Below are positions 4,708-63,416 of a stretch of DNA of 64,000 bases, one piece after another (position 1 is the stretch's first letter; each line of letters begins with the position of its first letter). Origin of the DNA: Natribaculum luteum (GTDB lineage: Archaea; Halobacteriota; Halobacteria; Halobacteriales; Natrialbaceae); NCBI RefSeq assembly GCF_023008545.1, contig NZ_CP095397.1:806001-870000 (forward strand), written 5' to 3'. Under the pieces are notes generated by a model that saw only the letters and a list, made by a program, of their open reading frames with translations, did not search any database and was not told the DNA's origin. A program made the position numbers and the translations under genes.

Positions 4708-4730
4708 GCCTCGGGGTCAAGTCCCGAGGC
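4708..4730. repeat. Right-end hairpin of the TnpB element
   Basis: Perfect 8-bp stem (GCCTCGGG / CCCGAGGC) around a 7-base loop. It contains the tnpB stop codon, which lies in the loop. IS200/IS605-type elements end in such a hairpin, which is also the 3' end of the guide (omega/re) RNA. The guide segment would be the bases just past the element, below position about 4700 on this orientation. Confidence 0.65.
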
Positions 4731-5966
4731 TTCCCGTTTCGATGACGCGACTTGCAGGAACCGATGAGGTTGAACCTCCGTCGGTTTCCACAGCGGTCGC
4801 AGTCTCCCCGGGCGTCGATTCGGCCTGTCCCAGACCTAGTTGGTGAATACCGCGAGAAAGAACGTTGTACGACGCATTAGCGTCCCTGTCCGCTTCGAAC
4901 CCACAACTCGGACAACTGTGTTTCCTGACCCACAACGGCTTGTCCGTCTCCACGCCACACTCCGCGCACTCTTTGGTTGTGCCACGCGGATTCACTTGAA
5001 CGACGCGTGTGCCGTACAGGTCGCCCTTGTACTCCAGCATCTCGATGAACCTACGCCACGCGGCGTCCTGTTTGTTGCGAGCGTTTCCGTCTTGCTGGAG
5101 CAGCCCTGAGACGTTCAGGTCTTCCACGAACACGGCGTCATACTCTTTGACTATCCACGTCGTCAACTTGTGTTGGAAGTCCTCGACCTTCCGCTTGATT
5201 CGACGCTTGACTTTGGCGACCGCTTGTCGTTGTTTTTCCCAGTTGTTACTGCCGTGTTCCTTGCGGGAGAGACTACGCTGTTCCCGTCGCAATCGTTCGT
5301 ATTCCTCGGAGAGATCGAGCCAGTCCACACTGTCGCCGTCTGACGTGTAGATGTAGCTGTTGATACCGAGGTCGATCCCCACGCAGTCTTCGGCGGTCAC
5401 GTCGTCCGCGTCGGGTTTCTCAGGGAGCGCATTATCTTCGATTTCGAGGCCGAACGTGACGTACCACTCACCCGTTGTCTCTTTCTTCAACGTGACTTCT
5501 TTGATAATGGCGTTTTCGGGGATGGAACGGTGGTATCGGATGGGGATGTCACCAATTTTGGAGAGCCAGAGCGTAGCAGTTCGACCACTCGTGTCTTTGA
5601 GTTCGAAACCAGACTGCGAATACGTCATACTCTGGTATTCTCGCGGTGACTTCCACTGCAGTTCACCGACCTTGTACCCCGCATCTTTCTTCTTGGAGAG
5701 GGTGCTGAGGTTGTTGTAGAAGCGTTCGACAGTCTTCTGCAACGCCTTCGAGTGAACCTCGGAAAATATGGGCCACTCGTCTTTCCACTCGGTGAGTCGC
5801 TTCTGGTGTTGGTATGCGAACCGATATTGTCCTCGTCGGTGTCGAGCGTGTTGTATTCGTATCGGGTGTGATTGTAGGCTTGGCGGTGGATGTCGATGTG
5901 GCGTTCGGCTTCCGCAGTCACACCTGTTCGGTCGGGATAGGCGCAGAAGCGGTAGTCGTACCACAT
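4717..5966 (-). pseudogene. tnpB: IS200/IS605-family TnpB (RNA-guided nuclease), frameshifted
   Basis: Two reading frames together give a haloarchaeal TnpB of about 416 residues. The first starts at ATG 5966 (MWYDYRFCAYPDRTG) and the second picks up at AYQHQKRLTEWKDEW. The switch is near 5818 and fits loss of one base. Downstream everything is intact: RuvC acidic residues in GIDLGIN, FVEDLNV and DRDANASYN, and a zinc ribbon CAEC...CPSC between the last two. TnpB cuts DNA guided by the RNA made from the element's end and helps the element persist. No TnpA transposase is present, so this is an IS1341-type solo element. The single clean lesion suggests recent loss or a sequencing error. Confidence 0.88.
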
Positions 5967-24750: not shown

Positions 24751-25345
24751 GCATTGTTCAGATTAGTTGATTCCAGCAGTATCCATACTCTGGAGCCACG
24801 TATCGGCGGTTGCTGGTTTGGCTGTTCTAAATAATTTCCAAATTGGTGGGTACGTCGTTTTATTTCTTGGAAGAGTCGTTTAACGGCATTCGATTACCAT
24901 GTGTCTCGTGCCGAGATCGGAAGCCACATCCGTGGAGTGCAGCTGTGAGCGACAGTAGTGTAGCTATGAGCCGCGCACTAGACCCTACGTCACCGACATC
25001 ACGTTTCTCCGAAAGTTCGGAGAAAGTAATCGAGATGACATCCCCCTTTGCGTTGGAAAGAGCCTGATGGAGAAATTCGTTTGTCGCTGGATCGACAACA
25101 GCGTACAGCAGTGGTGTTGATCATCGAGTTGAATCACGGTTTTGTCAAGTGCGATGTGTTCCGGTTGTTTGCCATTTATGGGCTGGAGATCGGCTTTGTG
25201 AACCTAGTTGTGAACAGTCAAGCGAGCCCGTTCAACACCGAACCTATCTAAGACAGAAATAGTTATCCGAAAATGATCACTAAGGCATTTCCCCTTGCCT
25301 GTAGTGCTTGAACGTCTTGCCAAGCGGCGTTGAAACGCCCATTCA
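24751..25345 (-). pseudogene. Decayed IS6-like transposase (second lineage)
   Basis: Minus-strand pieces in several frames: RFGVERARLTVHNWVHKADLQ, KTVIQLDDQHHWLYAVVDPATNEFLHQAL (first Asp region), then VKRLFQEIKRRTHQFGNY and ADTWLQSMDTAGIN followed by a stop. They follow the order of a haloarchaeal IS6-like DDE transposase. The motif TGTTCAGATTAG at 24755-24766 probably marks the element end and matches 8690-8701. The catalytic middle and the start are lost. Confidence 0.7.
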
Positions 25346-25586
25346 GACATCGACTGGCCACTTCTCCCCCTAACCTGATCTCAGCGGTTCTATCCTAGGA
25401 AACAGCGTCGTAAGGCGGTTTCAGCCTTCGTGCTTACCCGACGACGTCGAGGTACATCAAAGTGATCGTGATTATTGGGGTAATCAGAACCACCCTTCGA
25501 AATCGGTGTATCATGCGAATTCGGCTGTTACAGGCGCTATCGCTGAACAACATCCTGTTGTAAATGGTATAATGATATATAAAATT

Positions 25587-25594
25587 GGTCGTGT
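25587..25594. repeat. 8-bp direct repeat, likely target-site duplication (left)
   Basis: GGTCGTGT here, GGTCGTGT at 27643-27650 between the two IS copies, and GGTCGTGG at 29699-29706 after the second copy. Perfect for copy 1 and 7 of 8 for copy 2. Confidence 0.6.
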
Positions 25595-27642
25595 GTGCTG
25601 CTGCGAATACCCCGAAATCCGTGCACGAGATTCGCGTCTGTCGGTTGGAATCGGTCCAGAATACAGGCCGACCAAGGAATCACGACCGCCACTCACCACC
25701 CGTGAGTGGCGGTCTGGTGGGCGAGAACGGTATAATCAGTCGATTTAGACAGTGATACCTCTTGGGAAGGGCAAGCACAGAGCGGGATCTACAGCAATGC
25801 GCTCACCTCCCTCCGGAGGAACGCACGAAACCGCGGGGCGGTCACCCGCGGTTTCGTGCGAAACTCGATGACATCAATCAACGTCTGGACGAGGAAGTCC
25901 ACGAGCAGCCACAGATCGTACAACAGGACTGCAAAGCCGAAGTGGAACAACCGGACAGAGAAGTTAGTCGACGTCGTCCACGGTGCGAACTCCTTGATCT
26001 TGCTATAAGCTGTTTCAATCCCGCCTCGGCGTCTGTAGCGATTGATCTGCTTTTTCGTCAAGCGCCGGTCAAGACCAATCTCGTCGTTTACGTCGAGATT
26101 GGTCGCAAATACCTGCACCTCGTCGCGGTCCTCGTCTGGCGGGAGTCCGACCAGCGTTGTCTCGGCTCTGGTGTTGGGGACACAGTGTTTTACCGGCCCG
26201 TACACCGCGTGCTCGGATTTGACTGTCACTTGCTTTTGTCCCTCCACATCTTCGTCCATGCGCGCGATGAACCGCTTGACGCGGTCATCGCGCGGTGCCG
26301 GGATCACGTAGAAAAGGTCTCGCTGTTCGAGCACCGAAAATACGTCCGTGGCGTAGAATTCCCGATCAGCGTAGAGGCGCCGCGTATGAACCCGACAGAC
26401 GTCGCTGACGTGGTCGACGAGTCGGCGAACAACGTCGCCGACTCGGTAACTCTTGTCCTCGCCAGGATAGCTCTCTGGATCGTGATAATCGGCGTGCCCA
26501 ACTGGAAGCATCGCAGCTGCGAAGTGAACGTTGTCTCCAACAACGTTCGCGGTTGCGAACTTGTAGCACCAGTCGTAGGACTTGTCCTTTGGCGCACCCT
26601 GGACACGTACGAGTTCCTCACGCTCCCCGTAGAAAGCGACGTAGGTTATGTCGATCGACAGCATGACAGGCGTCTCGAACTCCAAGCGAGGCTTGGCCCG
26701 CGTCAAGACGCGGGCCGCGCCCCGGTTGACCATCTCCGCGATTTGTGTCGGTGAAAGGTCCTTGATCGCTTCCAGAAGCGTCTCTCCACTCGGTCCATCC
26801 TCGTAGAAGGGATCGTCGAGATCCGGGTCAGGATTGACGAAATCGCCGTAGGTTTCGGCACCGCCGTTAGCGGCGGTGCCTGTCACCCCGAGACAGGCCT
26901 CAAGCATCAGGAGTTCCTCGTCGTCGTAAACCGGGTCATCAGGCCGATCAAACTCGAAGGCGGGCAACACGACTGTCTGGAGTTCGTCGAGGAGGTCACG
27001 TGTTTTTCCCCGAATGAGACGGTTGACTGTGCGCTTCGAGGAGCCTATCGGCTCCTCCGAAGCGCTGTCTTCGTACGGTGTCCCGATGGGACTGCCGCGT
27101 TCAGCGGCCAACGCTTGGATCTGACGAGTAGCGGTCTCGATCGTCGATTGGAGGTCCGCAAACCGGTTAGTCTGTGCCCGAGAGATCGTGCTTCGTGAAG
27201 GTGTGTCATCGGGATTGAAGCCAAGAGCGTCAGCAAGTTGAGGGTCACTGTCGAGCGTCCGATGGAGCCAGCCATCGGACGCGTCTTCGAGTTCCTTCAG
27301 GAGGATCGCCCGGAGCATCGGTTCGAACGGTTTAGAGTCGTGCCAATGGGGAATGGGATCAGCACGGCAGTATTGGCTGACGTCGAGGTGAGTGACCAAC
27401 TCGGCCGCAGAGGTCGTCTTGTCGACGACCTCGGCGGCTTGCTTGGTTAGAGGCAGCCACCCGCCTGAGAGTGGACCGATATCTTGTAGGCGCTCGTCAA
27501 CTGATCGTTGAGTGCGGCTGTCATCAGCAGCCGCAACATGATCTGACCAGTTGTTTGTCACAGTGGGGGACGAATCGTCCCCCACCGGTCAGTTAATCGA
27601 TGTTGAGATTCCGTGCACGGGTTCTGTCATTCGTAGCTACAG
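25595..27642 (-). mobile_element. IS4-type insertion sequence, copy 1
   Basis: About 2.05 kb, with imperfect terminal inverted repeats (left GTGCTGCTGCGAATACCCC; right, complemented, CTGTAGCTACGAATGACAG, both followed by CCGTGCACG). One transposase gene on the minus strand. A 12-bp-stem hairpin (25685-25696/25702-25713) follows the transposase stop. An almost identical element sits directly beside it. Confidence 0.75.
25789..27585 (-). CDS. IS4-type DDE transposase, copy 1
   Basis: 598 residues from GTG 27585; in copy 2 codon 9 is ATG, so translation may start at 27561. DDE residues: Asp in MLSIDITYVAFYG (about 312), Asp in RLYADREFY (about 413), and the IS4 signature Y-(2)-R-(3)-E-(6)-K in RYRRRGGIETAYSKIK near 534. 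Intact, so possibly active. The gene is unusual: it carries at least a dozen perfect or nearly perfect inverted repeats along its length, with arms of 8-16 bp and loops of 1-10 bases. Examples: 25822-25837/25845-25860, 26073-26083/26094-26104, 26418-26428/26435-26445, 26695-26704/26707-26716, 26857-26866/26871-26880, 27255-27265/27272-27282, 27563-27573/27575-27585. The last covers the start. Confidence 0.88.
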   Translation of the reverse strand: MGDDSSPTVTNNWSDHVAAADDSRTQRSVDERLQDIGPLSGGWLPLTKQAAEVVDKTTSAAELVTHLDVSQYCRADPIPHWHDSKPFEPMLRAILLKELEDASDGWLHRTLDSDPQLADALGFNPDDTPSRSTISRAQTNRFADLQSTIETATRQIQALAAERGSPIGTPYEDSASEEPIGSSKRTVNRLIRGKTRDLLDELQTVVLPAFEFDRPDDPVYDDEELLMLEACLGVTGTAANGGAETYGDFVNPDPDLDDPFYEDGPSGETLLEAIKDLSPTQIAEMVNRGAARVLTRAKPRLEFETPVMLSIDITYVAFYGEREELVRVQGAPKDKSYDWCYKFATANVVGDNVHFAAAMLPVGHADYHDPESYPGEDKSYRVGDVVRRLVDHVSDVCRVHTRRLYADREFYATDVFSVLEQRDLFYVIPAPRDDRVKRFIARMDEDVEGQKQVTVKSEHAVYGPVKHCVPNTRAETTLVGLPPDEDRDEVQVFATNLDVNDEIGLDRRLTKKQINRYRRRGGIETAYSKIKEFAPWTTSTNFSVRLFHFGFAVLLYDLWLLVDFLVQTLIDVIEFRTKPRVTAPRFRAFLRREVSALL

Positions 27643-27650
27643 GGTCGTGT
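27643..27650. repeat. Shared direct repeat between the two IS copies
   Basis: GGTCGTGT, the only sequence separating copy 1 from copy 2, also present at the outer edges. Confidence 0.6.
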
Positions 27651-29698
27651 GGGTGCTGCGAATACCCCAAAATCCGTGCACGAGATTCGCGTCTGTCGGT
27701 AGGAATCGATCCCGAATACAGGGCCGATCAAGGAATCACGACCGCCACTCACCACCCGTGAGTGGCGGTCGGGTGGACGAAAACGGTATAATCAGTCGAT
27801 TTAGACAGTGATACCTCTCAGGAAGGGCAAGCACGGGGCGGGATCTACAGCAATGCGCTCACCTCCCTCCGGAGGAACGCACGAAACCGCGGGGCAGTCA
27901 CCCGCGGTTTCGTGCGAAACTCGATGATGTCGATCAACGTCTGGACGAGAAAGTCCACAAGCAACCATAGATCGTACAGTAGAACTGCGAAGCCGAAGTG
28001 GAATAACCGGATAGAGAAGTTTGTCGACGTCGTCCACGGTGCGAACTCCTTGATCTTACTATAGGCCGTTTCGATCCCGCCTCGGCGTCTGTAGCGAGTG
28101 ATTTGCTTTTTCGTCAAGCGACGGTCAAGACCAATCTCGTCGTTTACGTCGAGATTGGTCGAAAATACCTGCATCTCGTCGCAGTCCTCGTCTGGCGGGA
28201 GTCCAACCAGCGTCGTCTCAGCTCTGGTGTTGGAGACACCATGTTTTACCGGCCCGTACACCGCGTGCTCGGATTTGACTGTTACTTGCTTTTGTCCCTC
28301 TACATCCGTGTCCATGCGCGCGATGAACCGCTTGACGCGGTCATCGCGCGGTGCCGGAATCACGTAGAAAAGGTCTCGCTGTTCGAGTACCGAAAATACG
28401 TCCGTGGCGTAGAACTCCCGATCAGCGTAGAGTCGCCGCGTATGAACGCGACAGACGTCGTTGACGTGGTCGACGAGTCGGCGAACGATATCGCCGACTC
28501 GGTAACTCCTGTTTTTGCCAGGATAGCTCTCTGGGTCGTGGTAATCAGCGTGCCCGACTGGAAGCATCGCAGCTGCGAAGTGAACGTTGTCTCCAACAAC
28601 GTTCGCGGTTGCAAACTTGTAGCACCAGTTGTAGGACTTGTCCTTCGGCGCACCCTGGACACGTACGAGTTCCTCACGCTCCCCGTAGAAAGCGACGTAG
28701 GTCATGTCGATCGACAGCATGACTGGTGTCTCGAACTCCAAGCGAGGCTTGGCCCGCGTCAAGACGCGGGCCGCGCTTTGGTTGACCATCTCCGCGATTT
28801 GTGTCGGTGAAAGGTCCTTGATCGCCTCCAGAAGCGTCTCTCCACTCGGTCCGTCCTCGTAGAAGGGATCGTCGAGATCTGGGTCAGGATTGACGAAATC
28901 GCCGTAGGTTTCGGCACCGCCGTTAGCGGCGGTGCCTGTCAGCCCGAGACAGGCCTCCAGCATCAGGAGTTCCTCGTCGTCGTAAACCGGGTCATCAGGC
29001 CGGTCAAACTCGAAGGCAGGCAATACGACAGTTTGGAGTTCGTCGAGGAGATCACGTGTTTTCCTCCGAATGAGACGGTTGACTGTGCGCTTCGAGGAGC
29101 CTGTTGGCTCCTCCGAAGCGCTGTCTTCGTACGGTGTCCCGATCGGACTACCGCGTTCGGCGGCCAACGCTTGGATCTGACGAGTAGCAGTCTCGATCGT
29201 GGATTGGAGGTCCGCAAACCGATTAGTCTGTGCCCGAGAGATCGTGCTTCGTGAAGGTGTGTCGTCGGGATTAAAGCCAAGAGCATCCGCAAGTTGAGGG
29301 TCACTGTCGAGCGTCCGATGGAGCCAGCCATCGGACGCGTCTTCGAGTTTCTTCAGGAGAATCGCCCGGAGCATCGGTTCGAACGGTTTAGAGTCGTGCC
29401 AATGGGGAATGGAATCAGCACGGCAGTATTGGCTGACGTCGAGGTGAGTGACCAACTCGGCCGCAGAGGTCGTCTTGTCGACGACCTCGGCGGCTTGCTT
29501 GGTTAGGGGCAGCCACCCGCCGGAGAGTGGACCGATATCTTGTAGGCGCTCGTCAACTGATCGTTGAGTGCGGCTGTCATCAGCAGCCGCAACACGATCT
29601 GACCAGTTATTTGTCATAGTGGGGGACGAATCGTCCCCCACCGGTCAGTTAATCGATGTTGAGATTCCGTGCACGGGTTCTGTCATTCGTAGCTACAG
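27651..29698 (-). mobile_element. IS4-type insertion sequence, copy 2
   Basis: Same length, orientation and end sequences as copy 1 and directly adjacent to it. The two copies differ at scattered positions by a few percent, so this is not a fresh tandem duplication. Confidence 0.75.
27845..29641 (-). CDS. IS4-type DDE transposase, copy 2
   Basis: 598 residues, or 590 from ATG 29617. Same catalytic residues and the same RYRRRGGIETAYSKIK signature as copy 1. Amino-acid changes are scattered (for example VNRGAAR to VNQSAAR). The internal inverted repeats are all retained. In the ones I compared, differences between copies fall in loops (ACAACG versus ACGATA at 28485-28490; TATC versus TGTT in the 15-bp hairpin near 29100), not in arms. 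The 11-bp hairpin around 29619-29641 directly abuts the ATG at 29617. Confidence 0.88.
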   Translation of the reverse strand: MGDDSSPTMTNNWSDRVAAADDSRTQRSVDERLQDIGPLSGGWLPLTKQAAEVVDKTTSAAELVTHLDVSQYCRADSIPHWHDSKPFEPMLRAILLKKLEDASDGWLHRTLDSDPQLADALGFNPDDTPSRSTISRAQTNRFADLQSTIETATRQIQALAAERGSPIGTPYEDSASEEPTGSSKRTVNRLIRRKTRDLLDELQTVVLPAFEFDRPDDPVYDDEELLMLEACLGLTGTAANGGAETYGDFVNPDPDLDDPFYEDGPSGETLLEAIKDLSPTQIAEMVNQSAARVLTRAKPRLEFETPVMLSIDMTYVAFYGEREELVRVQGAPKDKSYNWCYKFATANVVGDNVHFAAAMLPVGHADYHDPESYPGKNRSYRVGDIVRRLVDHVNDVCRVHTRRLYADREFYATDVFSVLEQRDLFYVIPAPRDDRVKRFIARMDTDVEGQKQVTVKSEHAVYGPVKHGVSNTRAETTLVGLPPDEDCDEMQVFSTNLDVNDEIGLDRRLTKKQITRYRRRGGIETAYSKIKEFAPWTTSTNFSIRLFHFGFAVLLYDLWLLVDFLVQTLIDIIEFRTKPRVTAPRFRAFLRREVSALL

Positions 29699-29706
29699 GG
29701 TCGTGG

Positions 29707-30821
29707 GAAGTCTACCAGTTCTGGGTTCTGGTAAATCACGAGACGGCGACGACTTACCGTGAGAGATCACGCCGCTTGAGGTGGCCGTCTGGAACGGTCG
29801 TGACTGCAGTCCCAAGGAGCCCACCGATGACGAACCGATTAGCCGGTCTCAGGAAGCCTGCAAGACACTACAACCAAACGCAGTGTAGCGATTTACCAGA
29901 GCCAAGTTCTGTATTCGGATACCTATAAACCACTAGACTTCTAACGATGGGCTGTAGATCCCATTCATCTAGCCATTTAGCAGAACGTTCTACGAGCGCT
30001 CGAACCATGGAATTTTTCTAACTACACTATTCTGTAACCAATATTATTATATCGTACTACCAAGACCTGTCGCAACTAATATTAATATTTTTGTTATAAA
30101 CGACCCGCGATGGCTCCGTCGGCGGCGGGTCTGAGACGCTGTCAGCCAGCCGATATACTATTGCCAGATTACTTGATGAGGCGTTCCATATCGAGCAAGC
30201 GAAGAATTGCCTGAATCTCTCGAAGTGTCTCCTCCCTGCGTCCGATGAGAAACGACAAACTCGAGAGGGTATGCATTACATTCGTACGACTGTAATTTCT
30301 ACTGCACTTCGCCCACTCTCGTTGCGCTATGCCTCTCAGAAGGTGGTCCCCCTGGAACGAACAACTCGTAAATTCGTCCGAGTTATGCAAACAGCCAGGC
30401 CAGGATGAGAGGAATCGGTAGACTAGTCCAGACCCTCAGAGCGCGTAGTCGAGGCGATGACTACGTGGGGAAACAAGCTGTCCGGTGTGTACGAGAGGCA
30501 GTTGCGTCAGCAACTGCGCACAGACACGGATGCGAGGGCAGCTTAAACGTTTCACGTGCGCTGTGTTCTGTCGTCTTTCGCGCGTGCTCGGCGGCGGCTC
30601 GCGAGATGCAAGCCCCCGTCGTATCCGGTGCTGCTCATTCTGAGACGTGAATATTGGTTTTGCAGGGGTCATACGTCTCGGCGAGCGTGACAGGCGGCGA
30701 GTACACAATAACTGGCAATTTACCCCGATATTCGATCTTGAATTTTAGCGTTTGCCGGGTTAAGTGAGCAGACATCAAGTTATATGTGGAATTCAGTTAC
30801 ATCGACTGCGTTTTGCGAGCT
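29707..30821. other. No gene recognised
   Basis: About 1.1 kb after the tandem IS pair. Short frames only. A perfect hairpin with 8-bp arms and a 4-base loop lies at 30498-30517 (GCAGTTGC-GTCA-GCAACTGC). Probably IS or element debris. Confidence 0.4.
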
Positions 30822-34449: not shown

Positions 34450-34905
34450 GGTAGACGTATAGGACGGTGGTGCAGAAGTCCGTGAATCTTGTTGGCATAC
34501 TTGGTACGGTCTTCAACCAGTCTATCGCCCGCGCACGCGTGAGCGACCTTCCCTGACCTTGTCGGGCGGAATGTAGCTTTCGGGAACCGAGTTCAACCGC
34601 ACCACCCGAGTTAGTTCTTTGGCGTCAACACGATCGGTTTTTGTCGGAATAAGCGATCTTATTCAGTTCTTTCGGGTGGGTAACAGCCACAACCAAATTT
34701 CCGACAGCGTATCCTGGACGTGGTAGTAATTGCTGACCGCCTCGATTGCAGCTTGTGCGCCAGCGTACCGCTAGGCCAGTTGGTCGAGGTTCGCGTTCTC
34801 GACACCAACCTCTTCGACGATCTCTCCAGCCTCATCCGTTACTACCACCTGTGCGTGCCGTTTATCGACATCAATTCCGAGGTACAGGATTTGTTCATCC
34901 GGGAC
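34450..34905 (-). pseudogene. IS110-family transposase remnant
   Basis: Minus-strand frames give LYLGIDVDKRHAQVVVTDEAGEIVEEV, NLDQLA-stop-RYAGAQAAIEAVSNYYHVQDTLSE, then TDRVDAKELTRVVRLNSVPESYI and LVEDRTKYANKIHGLL. This is the N-terminal DEDD (RuvC-like) half of an IS110 transposase: first Asp in GIDVDK and DxxDA in TDRVDAKEL. It has a stop and frameshifts, and the C-terminal half is missing. Confidence 0.75.
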
Positions 34906-35243
34906 GCCAGTGCGTGAAGCAAAAATTCACCTATTCAGGCCGCCACGCCCATGACTCGGCTTCTTTCGTACACGGACCAGTCAGCACGACGCGCTCTTGA
35001 TGGCACGGAACTCACGTCGATCTCTTGTGCCCCACGCTTACTTCACGCTCCTATCGAGTAGCAGCGTTTCCATCGAGTTAGGACGGCAAAATCGTGGAGA
35101 AGCATCGCCTTCAGGGGTACCTCAACTTCCTGTCGCTGTTGCTGAACGGTCGTACCGACTGGTTCAGCAAAATCCTAAGTTACGAGTCATCGAAATGGTC
35201 TCAAACCAATAATTATTAGTATTTGGAAATGGCTGGGTTTGCT

Positions 35244-60783: not shown

Positions 60784-61752
60784 GTAGGATCGCTAGACGG
60801 CACCGCCTCAATCACGTTATCTCCGTAGAAAGCGAAGAGGCAGATTGGTTTGACATCCGAAATCCGCCTCTTCACCCGAGAATGCGTCACGAAAGCTAAA
60901 GACGTTGTCGAGAACCCAGACGAACCCGCCGACCCCGAAGGGGGTGGCGGGTTCGCCGACTGGGCGATGCTTACGCTGCAAGCCTTGCGAATCGAACTCG
61001 GGAAGTCTTACCGCCAGACAATCGATCTCCTGAGCGAAATGCCCGGCATTCTCGACGAAATCGGCCTGACGCGGCTTCCTCACTTCACTGTGCTTCGAGA
61101 CTGGTTGGAGACGATCCCAATGGAGACGTACCGTGCGTTTCTCGGCGAATCAGCCGAGAAACGCACTGGTCACGCCGCAATTGACTCAACCGGCTTCGAC
61201 CGTGACCAGCCCTCACGATACTATGCTCAGCGAGCGCACTACCGCGTTCGCTCGCTCAAAGTAACTGCTCTCGTCGACGTGAGAACGCTGTACGTCTACG
61301 ACGTTCACTGCACGACCACGAAGAAACACGACGCGAAGATTGGTCCGCAGGTCGCTCGGCGAAACGCCGAGGACCTGCGGTCACTCGCTGCTGATCGTGC
61401 GTATGACGGAAAGCCGTTCCGAGACGATCTCCGTGCAGACCGCATCCGACCGCTGATCAAACATCGGATCTACTCCTCGCTTGATCGAGCGCACAACGCC
61501 CGAATGAGTAGCCGCTGGTATAACCGTCGCTGGATGGTTGAAACCGTCTTCTCGTCGATCAAGCGCACGCTCGGCTCCGCCGTGCGTGCGCGCAGCTGGC
61601 ACCTCGAATTCCGCGAGATGGTGCTCAAATGTGCCGTCTACAATCTTCGTCGGTCGGTTAGATATCCGTAGAATCGGCCGCAGGCTATCGGTTTCCACCG
61701 AACGGAGAAGTAAGTGAAAACACTGGAATCAAGCCTCGTCTAGCGATCCTAC
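60784..61752 (+). mobile_element. IS5-type insertion sequence with 16-bp perfect ends
   Basis: Terminal inverted repeats GTAGGATCGCTAGACG at 60784-60799 and its complement at 61737-61752, enclosing one transposase gene; total 969 bp. No clear target duplication. Insertion falls at the 3' end of a small zinc-finger gene. Confidence 0.85.
60850..61671 (+). CDS. IS5-family DDE transposase
   Basis: 273 residues from TTG 60850. DDE: Asp in AIDSTGFDR (about 118), Asp in AADRAYDG (about 178), Glu in RRWMVETVFSSIKR (about 232). Intact. The N-terminal PEGGGGFADWAMLTLQALRIEL and DLLSEMPGILDEIGL are typical. Three long internal inverted repeats are present (60921-60930/60946-60955; 61133-61146/61153-61166; 61345-61361/61365-61380). 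A fourth (60834-60846/60861-60873, one mismatch) places the start codon in its loop, which should limit translation. Confidence 0.88.
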   Translation: MTSEIRLFTRECVTKAKDVVENPDEPADPEGGGGFADWAMLTLQALRIELGKSYRQTIDLLSEMPGILDEIGLTRLPHFTVLRDWLETIPMETYRAFLGESAEKRTGHAAIDSTGFDRDQPSRYYAQRAHYRVRSLKVTALVDVRTLYVYDVHCTTTKKHDAKIGPQVARRNAEDLRSLAADRAYDGKPFRDDLRADRIRPLIKHRIYSSLDRAHNARMSSRWYNRRWMVETVFSSIKRTLGSAVRARSWHLEFREMVLKCAVYNLRRSVRYP

Positions 61753-62091: not shown

Positions 62092-63213
62092 CTAGATACT
62101 CTCGAGGCCCTCCTGCCGATACTCTACGGGAGTGTGCGTGTACCGTCTCGTCGTTTGGAGGTTTTTGTGCCGCAGCTGATTGGCGGTCGCGGAAAGTCCC
62201 ATCTCTGTTTCGAGATAGGTGCCGGTCGAATGGCGAAGGGCGTACCACTTGAGGTCCCGGTTCTCGTCGTCGAGTTCTATTTCGTCGAGGAGCTTCCCCA
62301 GGAAGTAGTTGAGGGTCTTGGAGTTGTACGGATTGCCCTTACGGTTTAGCCAGATCGATTCCGTGTCGTCGTATTTGGCGATGTTCTCCCGCTGGCGCTT
62401 CCACTCCCGTAGAGCGTCGACCGTTTCGCTCCGTAAGGCAATCTCCCAGTGGTCTCGGTTTTTCGACGCTTCCTCCTTAGGGATGAACAGCGCACCCTTG
62501 GAGAGCCGGAGCCAAGACATCCTGGCCCGTTTGACTTCACAGGGTCGAAGTCCGGCATCGAGCGCGGTCCACAGCAAGGAGACCCACTTGTAGTTGGTGT
62601 TGAGGTACTCCCAGTCGTCCGGGCTGACGTCCGATTTGGGTTTGCCCAACTTCTGGGCGATGTGGGCCTTCCAGCGGTCACGTTCGTCCGGCGTGAGGTC
62701 ATTGTACGCGGGAACGGACCCGTAATCGAGAACGGCATCCCGGAGTTGTTGCCGTTCAGCTATCGAGAAGTAGTCGGGAATGTTGTAGGTTTTCTCGTCG
62801 AAGTTGACCTCACATTCCCAGAGCTTCTCCCCACGTTCGTCGTAGAGCCAGTAGAAGTACTTAGAGAGACTGTCCATCTCTCTTCGCTTCGTCGCCTCCG
62901 CGTACGGCTCACCGCTCCTTTTCCGGATTTCGTCGTTCTTCAGCATTGTCGCAACTGCGTCCGCGTGCTCGTGTTCCAGATACGAGACGTACCCGACTTC
63001 GTTCCAGGTGAGTCGATAGTACTTGTCGACACGGCTGAGGTAGTTGTCAACCGTATCGGCTGCGAGTGGCTTCTCTTCCTTTGGCTTCTGACCGCACTCG
63101 CGAAGCCAGGATTCGAAGTCGTCCATTATGGACTCGTAGGTGGTTTCCTGCCGTGGCGTGAGTTCGTATTCATACCGTTGATTGTTATTCGATTGTTGAT
63201 TAGACGTACCCAT
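62092..63213 (-). CDS. Tyrosine recombinase (integrase) 1
   Basis: 373 residues. N-terminal SAM-like core-binding domain (about 25-150) and C-terminal catalytic domain. Catalytic set: Arg in DAGLRPCEVKRARMSWL, Lys in the beta-hairpin region, H-x-x-R in LKWYALRHSTGTYLE, His in QLRHKNLQTT and the nucleophile Tyr in RRYTH. It would integrate or resolve the element carrying it. A paralogue lies upstream on the same strand (63417-64000). No att site identified. Confidence 0.88.
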   Translation of the reverse strand: MGTSNQQSNNNQRYEYELTPRQETTYESIMDDFESWLRECGQKPKEEKPLAADTVDNYLSRVDKYYRLTWNEVGYVSYLEHEHADAVATMLKNDEIRKRSGEPYAEATKRREMDSLSKYFYWLYDERGEKLWECEVNFDEKTYNIPDYFSIAERQQLRDAVLDYGSVPAYNDLTPDERDRWKAHIAQKLGKPKSDVSPDDWEYLNTNYKWVSLLWTALDAGLRPCEVKRARMSWLRLSKGALFIPKEEASKNRDHWEIALRSETVDALREWKRQRENIAKYDDTESIWLNRKGNPYNSKTLNYFLGKLLDEIELDDENRDLKWYALRHSTGTYLETEMGLSATANQLRHKNLQTTRRYTHTPVEYRQEGLESI

Positions 63214-63416
63214 GTAGTCATCGGGAGAATGTCATATCATTCTCCCGACACCGGAATCACCTTCATGTCTGGTCGTCTGAGATACACATATTAAAACCCA
63301 TCGCGCGAAAATTCTGAAGATAATCGGGGTGCAGGCTGGATATCGGTAGGAATGTTTCGTTCTTCCTCCCGTGTTTCACGATAAATTGCTGACCAATTGC
63401 TAGTCATATACCCAAT

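Follow-up and report, generated by a model that had tools for sequence, protein, structure and literature searches.

Insertion sequences (IS) of Halobacterium have long been studied, and folding of messenger RNA (mRNA) is familiar as a control of transposition from IS10 and IS50, where structures in the 5' leader keep transposase low. Ordered RNA structure on the scale of a whole genome, with many stem-loops over coding sequence, is known from some RNA viruses. A 5'-leader structure has likewise been described for the transposase mRNA of ISPpu9 (PMC8450116), and near-terminal palindromes are reported at the ends of Haloquadratum PATEs and IS605-type elements (PMC3119063). Here we describe a 64,000-nt stretch of Natribaculum luteum (contig NZ_CP095397.1 of assembly GCF_023008545.1, positions 806,001-870,000, forward strand; hereafter "the window") in which a 2.05 kb insertion sequence occurs twice in tandem; either copy has a single 598-codon transposase gene on the minus strand that is filled with perfect hairpins along its whole length. 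The proposed likeness to the bacterial leader systems is a folded mRNA that would keep transposase low, but those systems use one structure at the ribosome-binding site, whereas here an evenly spaced array spans the gene and recurs in many families. Similarly, the viral structures are imperfect stems of RNA genomes, whereas these are perfect, position-conserved stems of DNA elements; and the PATE and IS605-type elements share with our locus the presence of palindromes in haloarchaeal mobile DNA, but the relevant passages of PMC3119063 describe no gene-wide palindromes, in contrast to the stems found here throughout the gene of a DDE-like transposase. Searches of an open-access library (subscription journals being mostly not covered) turned up no account of transposase genes with such arrays.

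Counting as a stem any perfect inverted repeat with arms of at least 8 nt, without overlaps (arms 8-16 and loops 1-14 nt in the window genes), each of the two open reading frames (ORFs) holds 12 stems, or about one per 150 nt. This agrees with an earlier note on this DNA, which had claimed at least twelve inverted repeats across the gene and whose eleven examples were all found in place (two bulged ones by eye). Across 100 codon shuffles that kept the protein and the codon usage, the mean was only 0.67 and 0.61 stems for the two genes and the maximum 3, a null that is somewhat low because dinucleotides were not preserved and single-copy ORFs of the genome exceed it 1.6-fold; for arms of at least 10 nt, 8 stems were observed vs. 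0.07 and 0.11 in shuffles. The two copies differ at 95 of 1797 bases, of which none fall in the 248 arm bases, 6 in the 71 loop bases and 89 in the remaining 1478, matching the note's observation that loops change while arms do not, and synonymous-site differences are likewise absent from arms (0/105, against 64/588 outside; Fisher p = 2.7e-5). When either strand is folded at full length to minimum energy, all 12 stems appear, each with at least 7 of 9 pairs. Among the 39 other non-overlapping window ORFs of at least 150 codons the maximum is 3 stems, and the sole ORF that reaches it is a transposase gene. Stem 1 covers the GTG called as start; since the reading frame of most relatives begins after it, this stem is probably part of the leader.

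The arrays are retained among relatives. At 82, 73 and 68-70% protein identity 8-10 stems are kept, mostly in the same columns (7 in a truncated copy); in the 69% group the third and eighth stems of the gene are weak or missing. When the arms are taken from a single sequence, synonymous differences amount to 3/95 in arms and 184/503 elsewhere for the 82% relative, 3/89 and 173/434 for the 73% relative, and 7/79 and 161/409 for the 68% relative (2/87 and 37/574 for the damaged copy L075, p = 0.15). The earlier note had argued that selection acts on the fold of the nucleic acid in addition to the protein, and had named codon shuffles and homologues as checks; both were run and bear it out, as shuffles fail to reproduce the hairpins and the arms change much less than other positions. 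Covariation, which the note had also put forward, gave a divided answer: compensation occurs, yet does not accompany every change. Over 98 non-independent pairs of related genes (those among the 60 listed apparently all from the window's own clade), and taking a stem as kept when at most 2 pairs fail, 139 of 146 changed cells at second-third position pairs were compensated, third-third pairs changed in 36 of 545 cells with 8 compensated, and unpaired third positions differed at 44%. The arms are nearly fixed and, after a protein change had moved one side, the other side often followed, a pattern that we read as selection on pairing, atop the protein code. The best evidence for such selection is the shuffle excess together with the low synonymous change, rather than compensation.

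To tell selection from mending, we also compared damaged copies. Changed pairs numbered 72/364 (63 uncompensated) in the 10 copies with at least 4 lesions, 26/1125 (23 uncompensated) in the 21 copies with 1-3 lesions and 23/1198 (22 uncompensated) in the 16 intact copies. The ratio of arm to remaining change scatters from 0.14 to 0.89 across identity bands in damaged copies, and is 0.65 for two intact copies at 80-90% identity and 0.08 for eleven at 98-99.8%. This comparison is weak because divergence from before and after the death of a copy is mixed and some lesions are possibly alignment artefacts. It bears on a purely mutational origin, in which template-switch (quasipalindrome) events, perhaps during transposition, would create and mend hairpins with no selection. 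We consider this very unlikely, even though template switching would be expected to produce strand symmetry and short loops: third-third pairs, which are free to co-change, did so in only the few cells given above, stems are evenly spaced, little of the kind is seen in host genes and TnpB of the same DNA, and most changed pairs in the most damaged copies stayed unmended (intact copies, however, are hardly different in this respect, and the argument would not touch a mechanism linked to transposition).

What the hairpins might do is suggested by their distribution in a transposase tree of 53 entries. In the window's hairpin-rich clade none of 15 entries has a winged-helix gene, whereas 14 of 15 do in the hairpin-free sister clade (L089 included; the truncated L068 is the one without), the two clades being joined with support of 100/100 and the hairpin-free side with 91/81. 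In the closest hairpin-free relatives (42-49% identical to the window transposase, 0-2 stems) this gene is divergent and lies ~60-370 nt upstream of the transposase; a Pfam scan of 8 of its proteins gave 4 weak matches (HxlR, MarR or HVO_A0261, among them the L058 protein, just above the HxlR cut-off) and 4 without any. A second contrast, with a joining support of 91/91, sets 5 hairpin-rich entries without either regulator (one seen with 500-nt flanks only) against 2 hairpin-free entries with a TrmB-like helix-turn-helix (HTH) gene above the Pfam cut-off, and a Cro-type HTH gene lies near the stem-free ISH7A, a distant relative. ISH7 and the hairpin-free relatives are akin to the window element in their transposase (24% identity for ISH7A), but differ from it in having 0-2 stems and an HTH regulator gene beside the transposase. 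The regulator lies within the conserved unit (L032 688-3420 matches L034 over 2.7 kb, and L069 1464-3642 matches L070 over 2.2 kb); regulator units measure 2.2-2.7 kb, against 1.7-2.05 kb for hairpin units, which hold the transposase alone (L054 and L055 are alike over 2.9 kb because they share a 3' neighbour, L054 and L031 over only 2.0 kb). Encoded regulators and hairpins seem to replace each other, which amounts to a natural experiment, and this swap points to control of expression.

Our preferred reading, to which we give a probability of roughly 45%, is that the hairpin array serves as a built-in brake on transposase output, most likely via the folded mRNA. On this reading purifying selection keeps strong local hairpins on top of the protein code; the transposase mRNA would fold in near-saturating salt; and the hairpins would halt or delay ribosomes throughout the message and leave it open to degradation, such that much mRNA would yield little transposase and the host would be spared an excess of the element. 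Melting the hairpins may call for an Lsm/Sm-type RNA chaperone. We infer the effect on protein production, the action in the mRNA and the ribosome or decay step alike from this combination of evidence. More tentatively still, haloarchaeal IS of the DDE/DEDD type may have arrived by convergence at a transposase coding sequence that doubles as a row of evenly spaced hairpins, a built-in regulator that evolution can exchange for an encoded repressor, which would make it a general form of transposon self-control across an archaeal class. Of the roles suggested in the earlier note, limiting transposase production is the one favoured here, whereas sites for a single DNA-binding protein are unlikely, as the stems share no common sequence within a gene or between families and vary in loop length (judged by eye, no motif search having been run).

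Published data from Halobacterium salinarum can be set beside this brake. There, mobilome mRNA is abundant, yet of 33 mobilome proteins just 4 could be detected, namely three TnpB and an ISH2-encoded one; the protein SmAP1 bound 24 of 33 mobilome transcripts, ribosomes accumulate 5' on an mRNA of the ISH3 family, and IS4 and ISH3 transposition is reduced without SmAP1 (PMC10134880). The authors attribute the low protein to SmAP1 and antisense RNA, and mention melting of hairpins by SmAP1 as possible help to translation (PMC10134880). The hairpin-rich ISH3B and ISH8 (IS4) fit these data, and we count it in favour of the brake that TnpB genes, which lack a hairpin excess (see below), supply three of the four detected proteins (PMC10134880). 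The brake would offer a testable cause both for a mobilome with mRNA and hardly any protein and for the need of ISH3 and IS4 transposition for SmAP1 (PMC10134880).

Several observations weigh against this reading. Elongating ribosomes ordinarily melt such stems, and a function in the sense RNA is expected to tolerate G-U pairs clearly better. Among one-mismatch stems within genes, however, G-U was found 15 times and A-C 19 (7 vs. 16 for longer stems), in genes that were selected by hairpin number, as for all wobble, spacing and phase tests; over all states of third-position pairs the counts are 34 and 19 (p = 0.21). The folding excess over codon shuffles in 37 genes is nearly the same for the sense (z -6.3) and the antisense strand (z -5.9, paired p = 0.24; -1.2 and -0.9 for 15 host genes). 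Stems show no concentration at the 5' end, the usual site of translational control, nor, by eye, any preference for GNRA or UUCG loops. When distinct states over 14 families are counted, 41 are compensated and 132 uncompensated (63 of these at stem ends), and between closely similar intact copies all but one of the 23 changed pairs lack compensation. Twelve hairpin-free entries of the tree (ten genes of 511-541 aa, L036 and L038) matched neither of the two regulator models (their neighbours not having been Pfam-scanned), so that hairpin-or-regulator is not a rule. Finally, the SmAP1 data concern other elements, the relevant sections of that report neither describe nor test hairpins in those genes, and its authors discuss SmAP1 as both repressor and helper (PMC10134880).

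The remaining wobble counts do not point in one direction. G-U and A-C stand at 28 vs. 38 cells in a first alignment of relatives, which took in the degenerate L075, the 5'-broken L077, the 5'-truncated L076 and the 3'-truncated L057, at 51 vs. 59 cells over the 98 gene pairs, and at 44 vs. 28 when counted as distinct states; at inner synonymous third-position pairs they are 21 and 7, with a G-U supply of 0.55 (p = 0.037). Strand preference is weak, G-U being at most slightly better tolerated than A-C, and the counts conflict as to folded RNA or folded DNA. The equal folding of both strands and the small G-U/A-C asymmetry would be expected if the hairpins matter in both the mRNA and an antisense RNA, preventing the two from annealing or serving as loop-loop contacts, as any mismatch would then harm either strand. 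The even spacing, which leaves no long bare stretch, would also suit such a role, and of 846 antisense RNAs in H. salinarum, 58 lie across transposase genes, those with ribosome signal being enriched for transposases (PMC6523106). Antisense RNA alone does not explain the regulator swap, however, and we hold this explanation to be rather unlikely.

The arrays share a common form. Loops are most often 4-7 nt long, and beyond 30 nt no excess over shuffles is left. Stem spacing is more regular than the random-placement median in 10 of 11 protein clusters with at least 5 stems (combined Fisher p = 8.6e-5; 24 of 27 in a less independent set), each cluster being represented by its most-stemmed member, which somewhat favours regular-looking arrays. 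In 37 family representatives, stems with arms of at least 9 nt number 19, 26, 24, 13, 21, 18, 23, 17, 19 and 12 over successive tenths of the gene, all tenths being filled alike and not the leader alone, as in 5'-leader fold-back control. Non-coding flanks carry hairpins with arms of at least 10 nt as well (9 in 50 flanks of hairpin-rich genes vs. 9 in 289 flanks of single-copy genes).

Hairpin arrays also occur well beyond the window element. The earlier note had treated them as a feature of this gene; they are real but not peculiar to it, and recur in many unrelated haloarchaeal IS families, namely transposases of IS66, IS110, IS630, IS1595, IS5 and ISH3 type. When nine representatives were compared with family models, IS66, IS110, IS1595, two IS630 and one ISH3 scored over the cut-off, and the other three were ISH3-like but below the ISH3 cut-off. 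Across the window and 40 haloarchaeal stretches, 32 of 613 ORFs have at least 5 stems, 28 of them transposase-like and 4 long and G+C-rich (5-8 stems vs. 1.4-2.8 shuffled), a transposase share that does not come from a random sample because 20 of the stretches were picked around known relatives. On the plasmids of Halobacterium NRC-1, stems number 11 in ISH3B, 10 in ISH27-2, 7 in ISH10, 6 in ISH8, 5 each in ISH8A, ISH8E and ISH11, and 4 each in ISH8B and ISH28, and 0-2 in the other genes tested. These elements resemble ours in their 4-11 stems, and the window element differs in being a longer relative that scores under the ISH3 model cut-off. ISH7A and ISH7B of NRC-1 (L151 1905-3719 and L254 36883-38697) have no stems and, of the named haloarchaeal IS tested, depart most plainly from the pattern. 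As unrelated families carry the arrays at different places in the gene, they were probably built independently. In many unrelated families, the IS genes of Halobacterium appear to carry, besides the protein code, a structural message that is under selection. This is a clear example of dual coding, and synonymous changes in hairpin-bearing transposase genes should not be assumed neutral.

Outside this group the excess is small or lacking. ORFs over the middle of DDE_Tnp_1 loci, some of which are probably neighbours or wrong frames, gave 72 stems vs. 7.0 shuffled for 19 haloarchaeal loci (all 9 from other genomes and 10 of 30 from the own genome; 52 vs. 5.2 for the 13 distinct ORFs), and 4 vs. 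3.4 for 18 loci from other archaea of the same phylum, of lower G+C, where 19 of 20 loci were used, L277 (two stops) being left out and L281 having no ORF. Seven bacterial IS66 and IS110 relatives, most of higher GC and two of them ORFs found by scan, reach 5 vs. 3.9, against 6, 7 and 7 stems in the three haloarchaeal genes compared with them, and E. coli IS1, IS5 and IS30 have no stems. A rhizobial IS21 istB gene (L285 11748-12644) has 3 stems vs. 0.2, which may be chance or a bacterial hint of such arrays. The 16 distinct TnpB ORFs of the own genome, drawn from 28 loci, lack an excess (6 stems vs. 4.2 shuffled), and the 25 ORFs from 30 IS200 loci of the family show 7 vs. 2.6, some unintended genes being included in both sets. 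In the window itself, a stem-free TnpB-type gene of the IS200/605 kind lies at 4717-5964, in the same genome as the hairpin-rich IS. Among what was sampled, hairpin arrays are nearly confined to haloarchaeal DDE/DEDD transposase genes.

A survey of 1110 ORFs in 1.264 Mb of the same genome (copies counted within that sequence) found 646 stems vs. 396 shuffled in 1003 single-copy ORFs, 36 vs. 9.9 in 37 two-copy ORFs, 139 vs. 9.9 in 34 ORFs with 3-4 copies, and 179 vs. 14.1 in 36 ORFs with at least 5 copies, many of the last being near-copies of each other. To chance, codon bias, base composition or an antisense gene we give next to no credence: single-copy ORFs do lie slightly above shuffles, the null being a little low, but the excess in transposases is 10-20 fold at equal GC, the bacterial IS66 and IS110 genes stay near shuffle level at mostly higher GC, and loops change while arms stay conserved, an antisense gene being rejected on the ground that conservation tracks arms, not loops. 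The relation to copy number is an association only, several single-copy transposases being hairpin-rich. It enters a further explanation, at the level of DNA, in which hairpins in single-stranded DNA or cruciforms would interrupt recombinase filaments and lessen ectopic recombination among the many identical IS copies of recombination-prone, polyploid haloarchaea. Watson-Crick pairing with near strand symmetry, even spacing, the strong link to copy number, the hairpins in non-coding flanks and the small TnpB excess all suit this account. It nevertheless appears unlikely, as it leaves the regulator swap unaccounted for, would lead one to expect hairpins in the stem-free ISH7A and ISH7B, and meets hairpin-rich genes in single copy; the benefit per base pair would also be tiny.

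As to the element itself (Table 1), genomic matches to copy 1 end at 27642 on one side and at 25593 or 25595 on the other, and two further copies elsewhere in the genome are 100% identical to it. The motif GGTCGTG stands, by eye, left of, between and right of the two copies (25587-25593, 27643-27649 and 29699-29705), as if one element had inserted beside the other with the same target duplication. The protein is a DDE-type transposase: it has a Pfam match to DUF772 (31 bits), with DDE_Tnp_1 (PF01609) at 19.9 and 20.5 bits for the two copies, below the cut-off of 23. The IS4-type label of the earlier note is not supported by these DDE_Tnp_1 scores, and the best NCBIfam model is ISH3 (NF033541; 97.9 bits, E 5.5e-28); because this score is under the curated cut-off of 225, we call the element ISH3-like and do not file it as ISH3. 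Rfam 15 gave no matches at gathering score within 25000-30500.

Table 1. Features of the two insertion sequence copies, and regulator genes of hairpin-free relatives.
Feature	Position	Strand	Remarks
Insertion sequence copy 1	25594..27642	-	~2.05 kb, one gene; imperfect terminal repeats around GTGCACG, read by eye
Transposase ORF copy 1	25789..27585	-	598 aa; ISH3/IS1380-like DDE transposase
Copy 1 stem 1	27563..27585	-	arm 11, loop 1; probably leader
Copy 1 stem 2	27513..27535	-	arm 8, loop 7
Copy 1 stem 3	27410..27432	-	arm 9, loop 5
Copy 1 stem 4	27255..27282	-	arm 11, loop 6
Copy 1 stem 5	27038..27057	-	arm 8, loop 4; longer if a bulge is allowed
Copy 1 stem 6	26857..26880	-	arm 10, loop 4
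Copy 1 stem 7	26695..26716	-	arm 10, loop 2
Copy 1 stem 8	26526..26548	-	arm 9, loop 5; not among the earlier examples
Copy 1 stem 9	26418..26445	-	arm 11, loop 6
Copy 1 stem 10	26261..26294	-	arm 10, loop 14, bulged inner stem
Copy 1 stem 11	26073..26104	-	arm 11, loop 10
Copy 1 stem 12	25822..25860	-	arm 16, loop 7
Copy 1 hairpin, 3' non-coding part	25684..25714	-	arm 13, loop 5
Insertion sequence copy 2	27650..29698	-	95% identical, tandem; ends placed from GGTCGTG
Transposase ORF copy 2	27845..29641	-	598 aa
Copy 2 stem 1	29619..29641	-	
Copy 2 stem 2	29569..29591	-	
Copy 2 stem 3	29466..29488	-	
Copy 2 stem 4	29311..29338	-	
Copy 2 stem 5	29094..29113	-	
Copy 2 stem 6	28913..28936	-	
Copy 2 stem 7	28751..28772	-	
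Copy 2 stem 8	28582..28604	-	
Copy 2 stem 9	28474..28501	-	
Copy 2 stem 10	28317..28350	-	
Copy 2 stem 11	28129..28160	-	
Copy 2 stem 12	27878..27916	-	
Copy 2 hairpin, 3' non-coding part	27739..27771	-	arm 14, loop 5
Winged-helix regulator genes	L032 691-1197; L139 15545-16078		inside hairpin-free relatives of the IS, divergent
TrmB-like small HTH genes	L069 3412-3648; L070 916-1182		same position as the winged-helix gene, other hairpin-free branch

Elsewhere in the window, a transposase remnant at 34480-34930 (73% alignment, 7 lesions) has partly broken hairpin arms, and a further transposase ORF with a DDE_Tnp_1 domain (60850-61671) carries a perfect 14-bp stem at 61133 and two 8-bp stems. 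Hairpins of 10 bp lie at 25004 and 45367, and a perfect 11-bp hairpin (63221-63248) stands immediately upstream of an ORF at 62092-63213 that by eye looks integrase-like.

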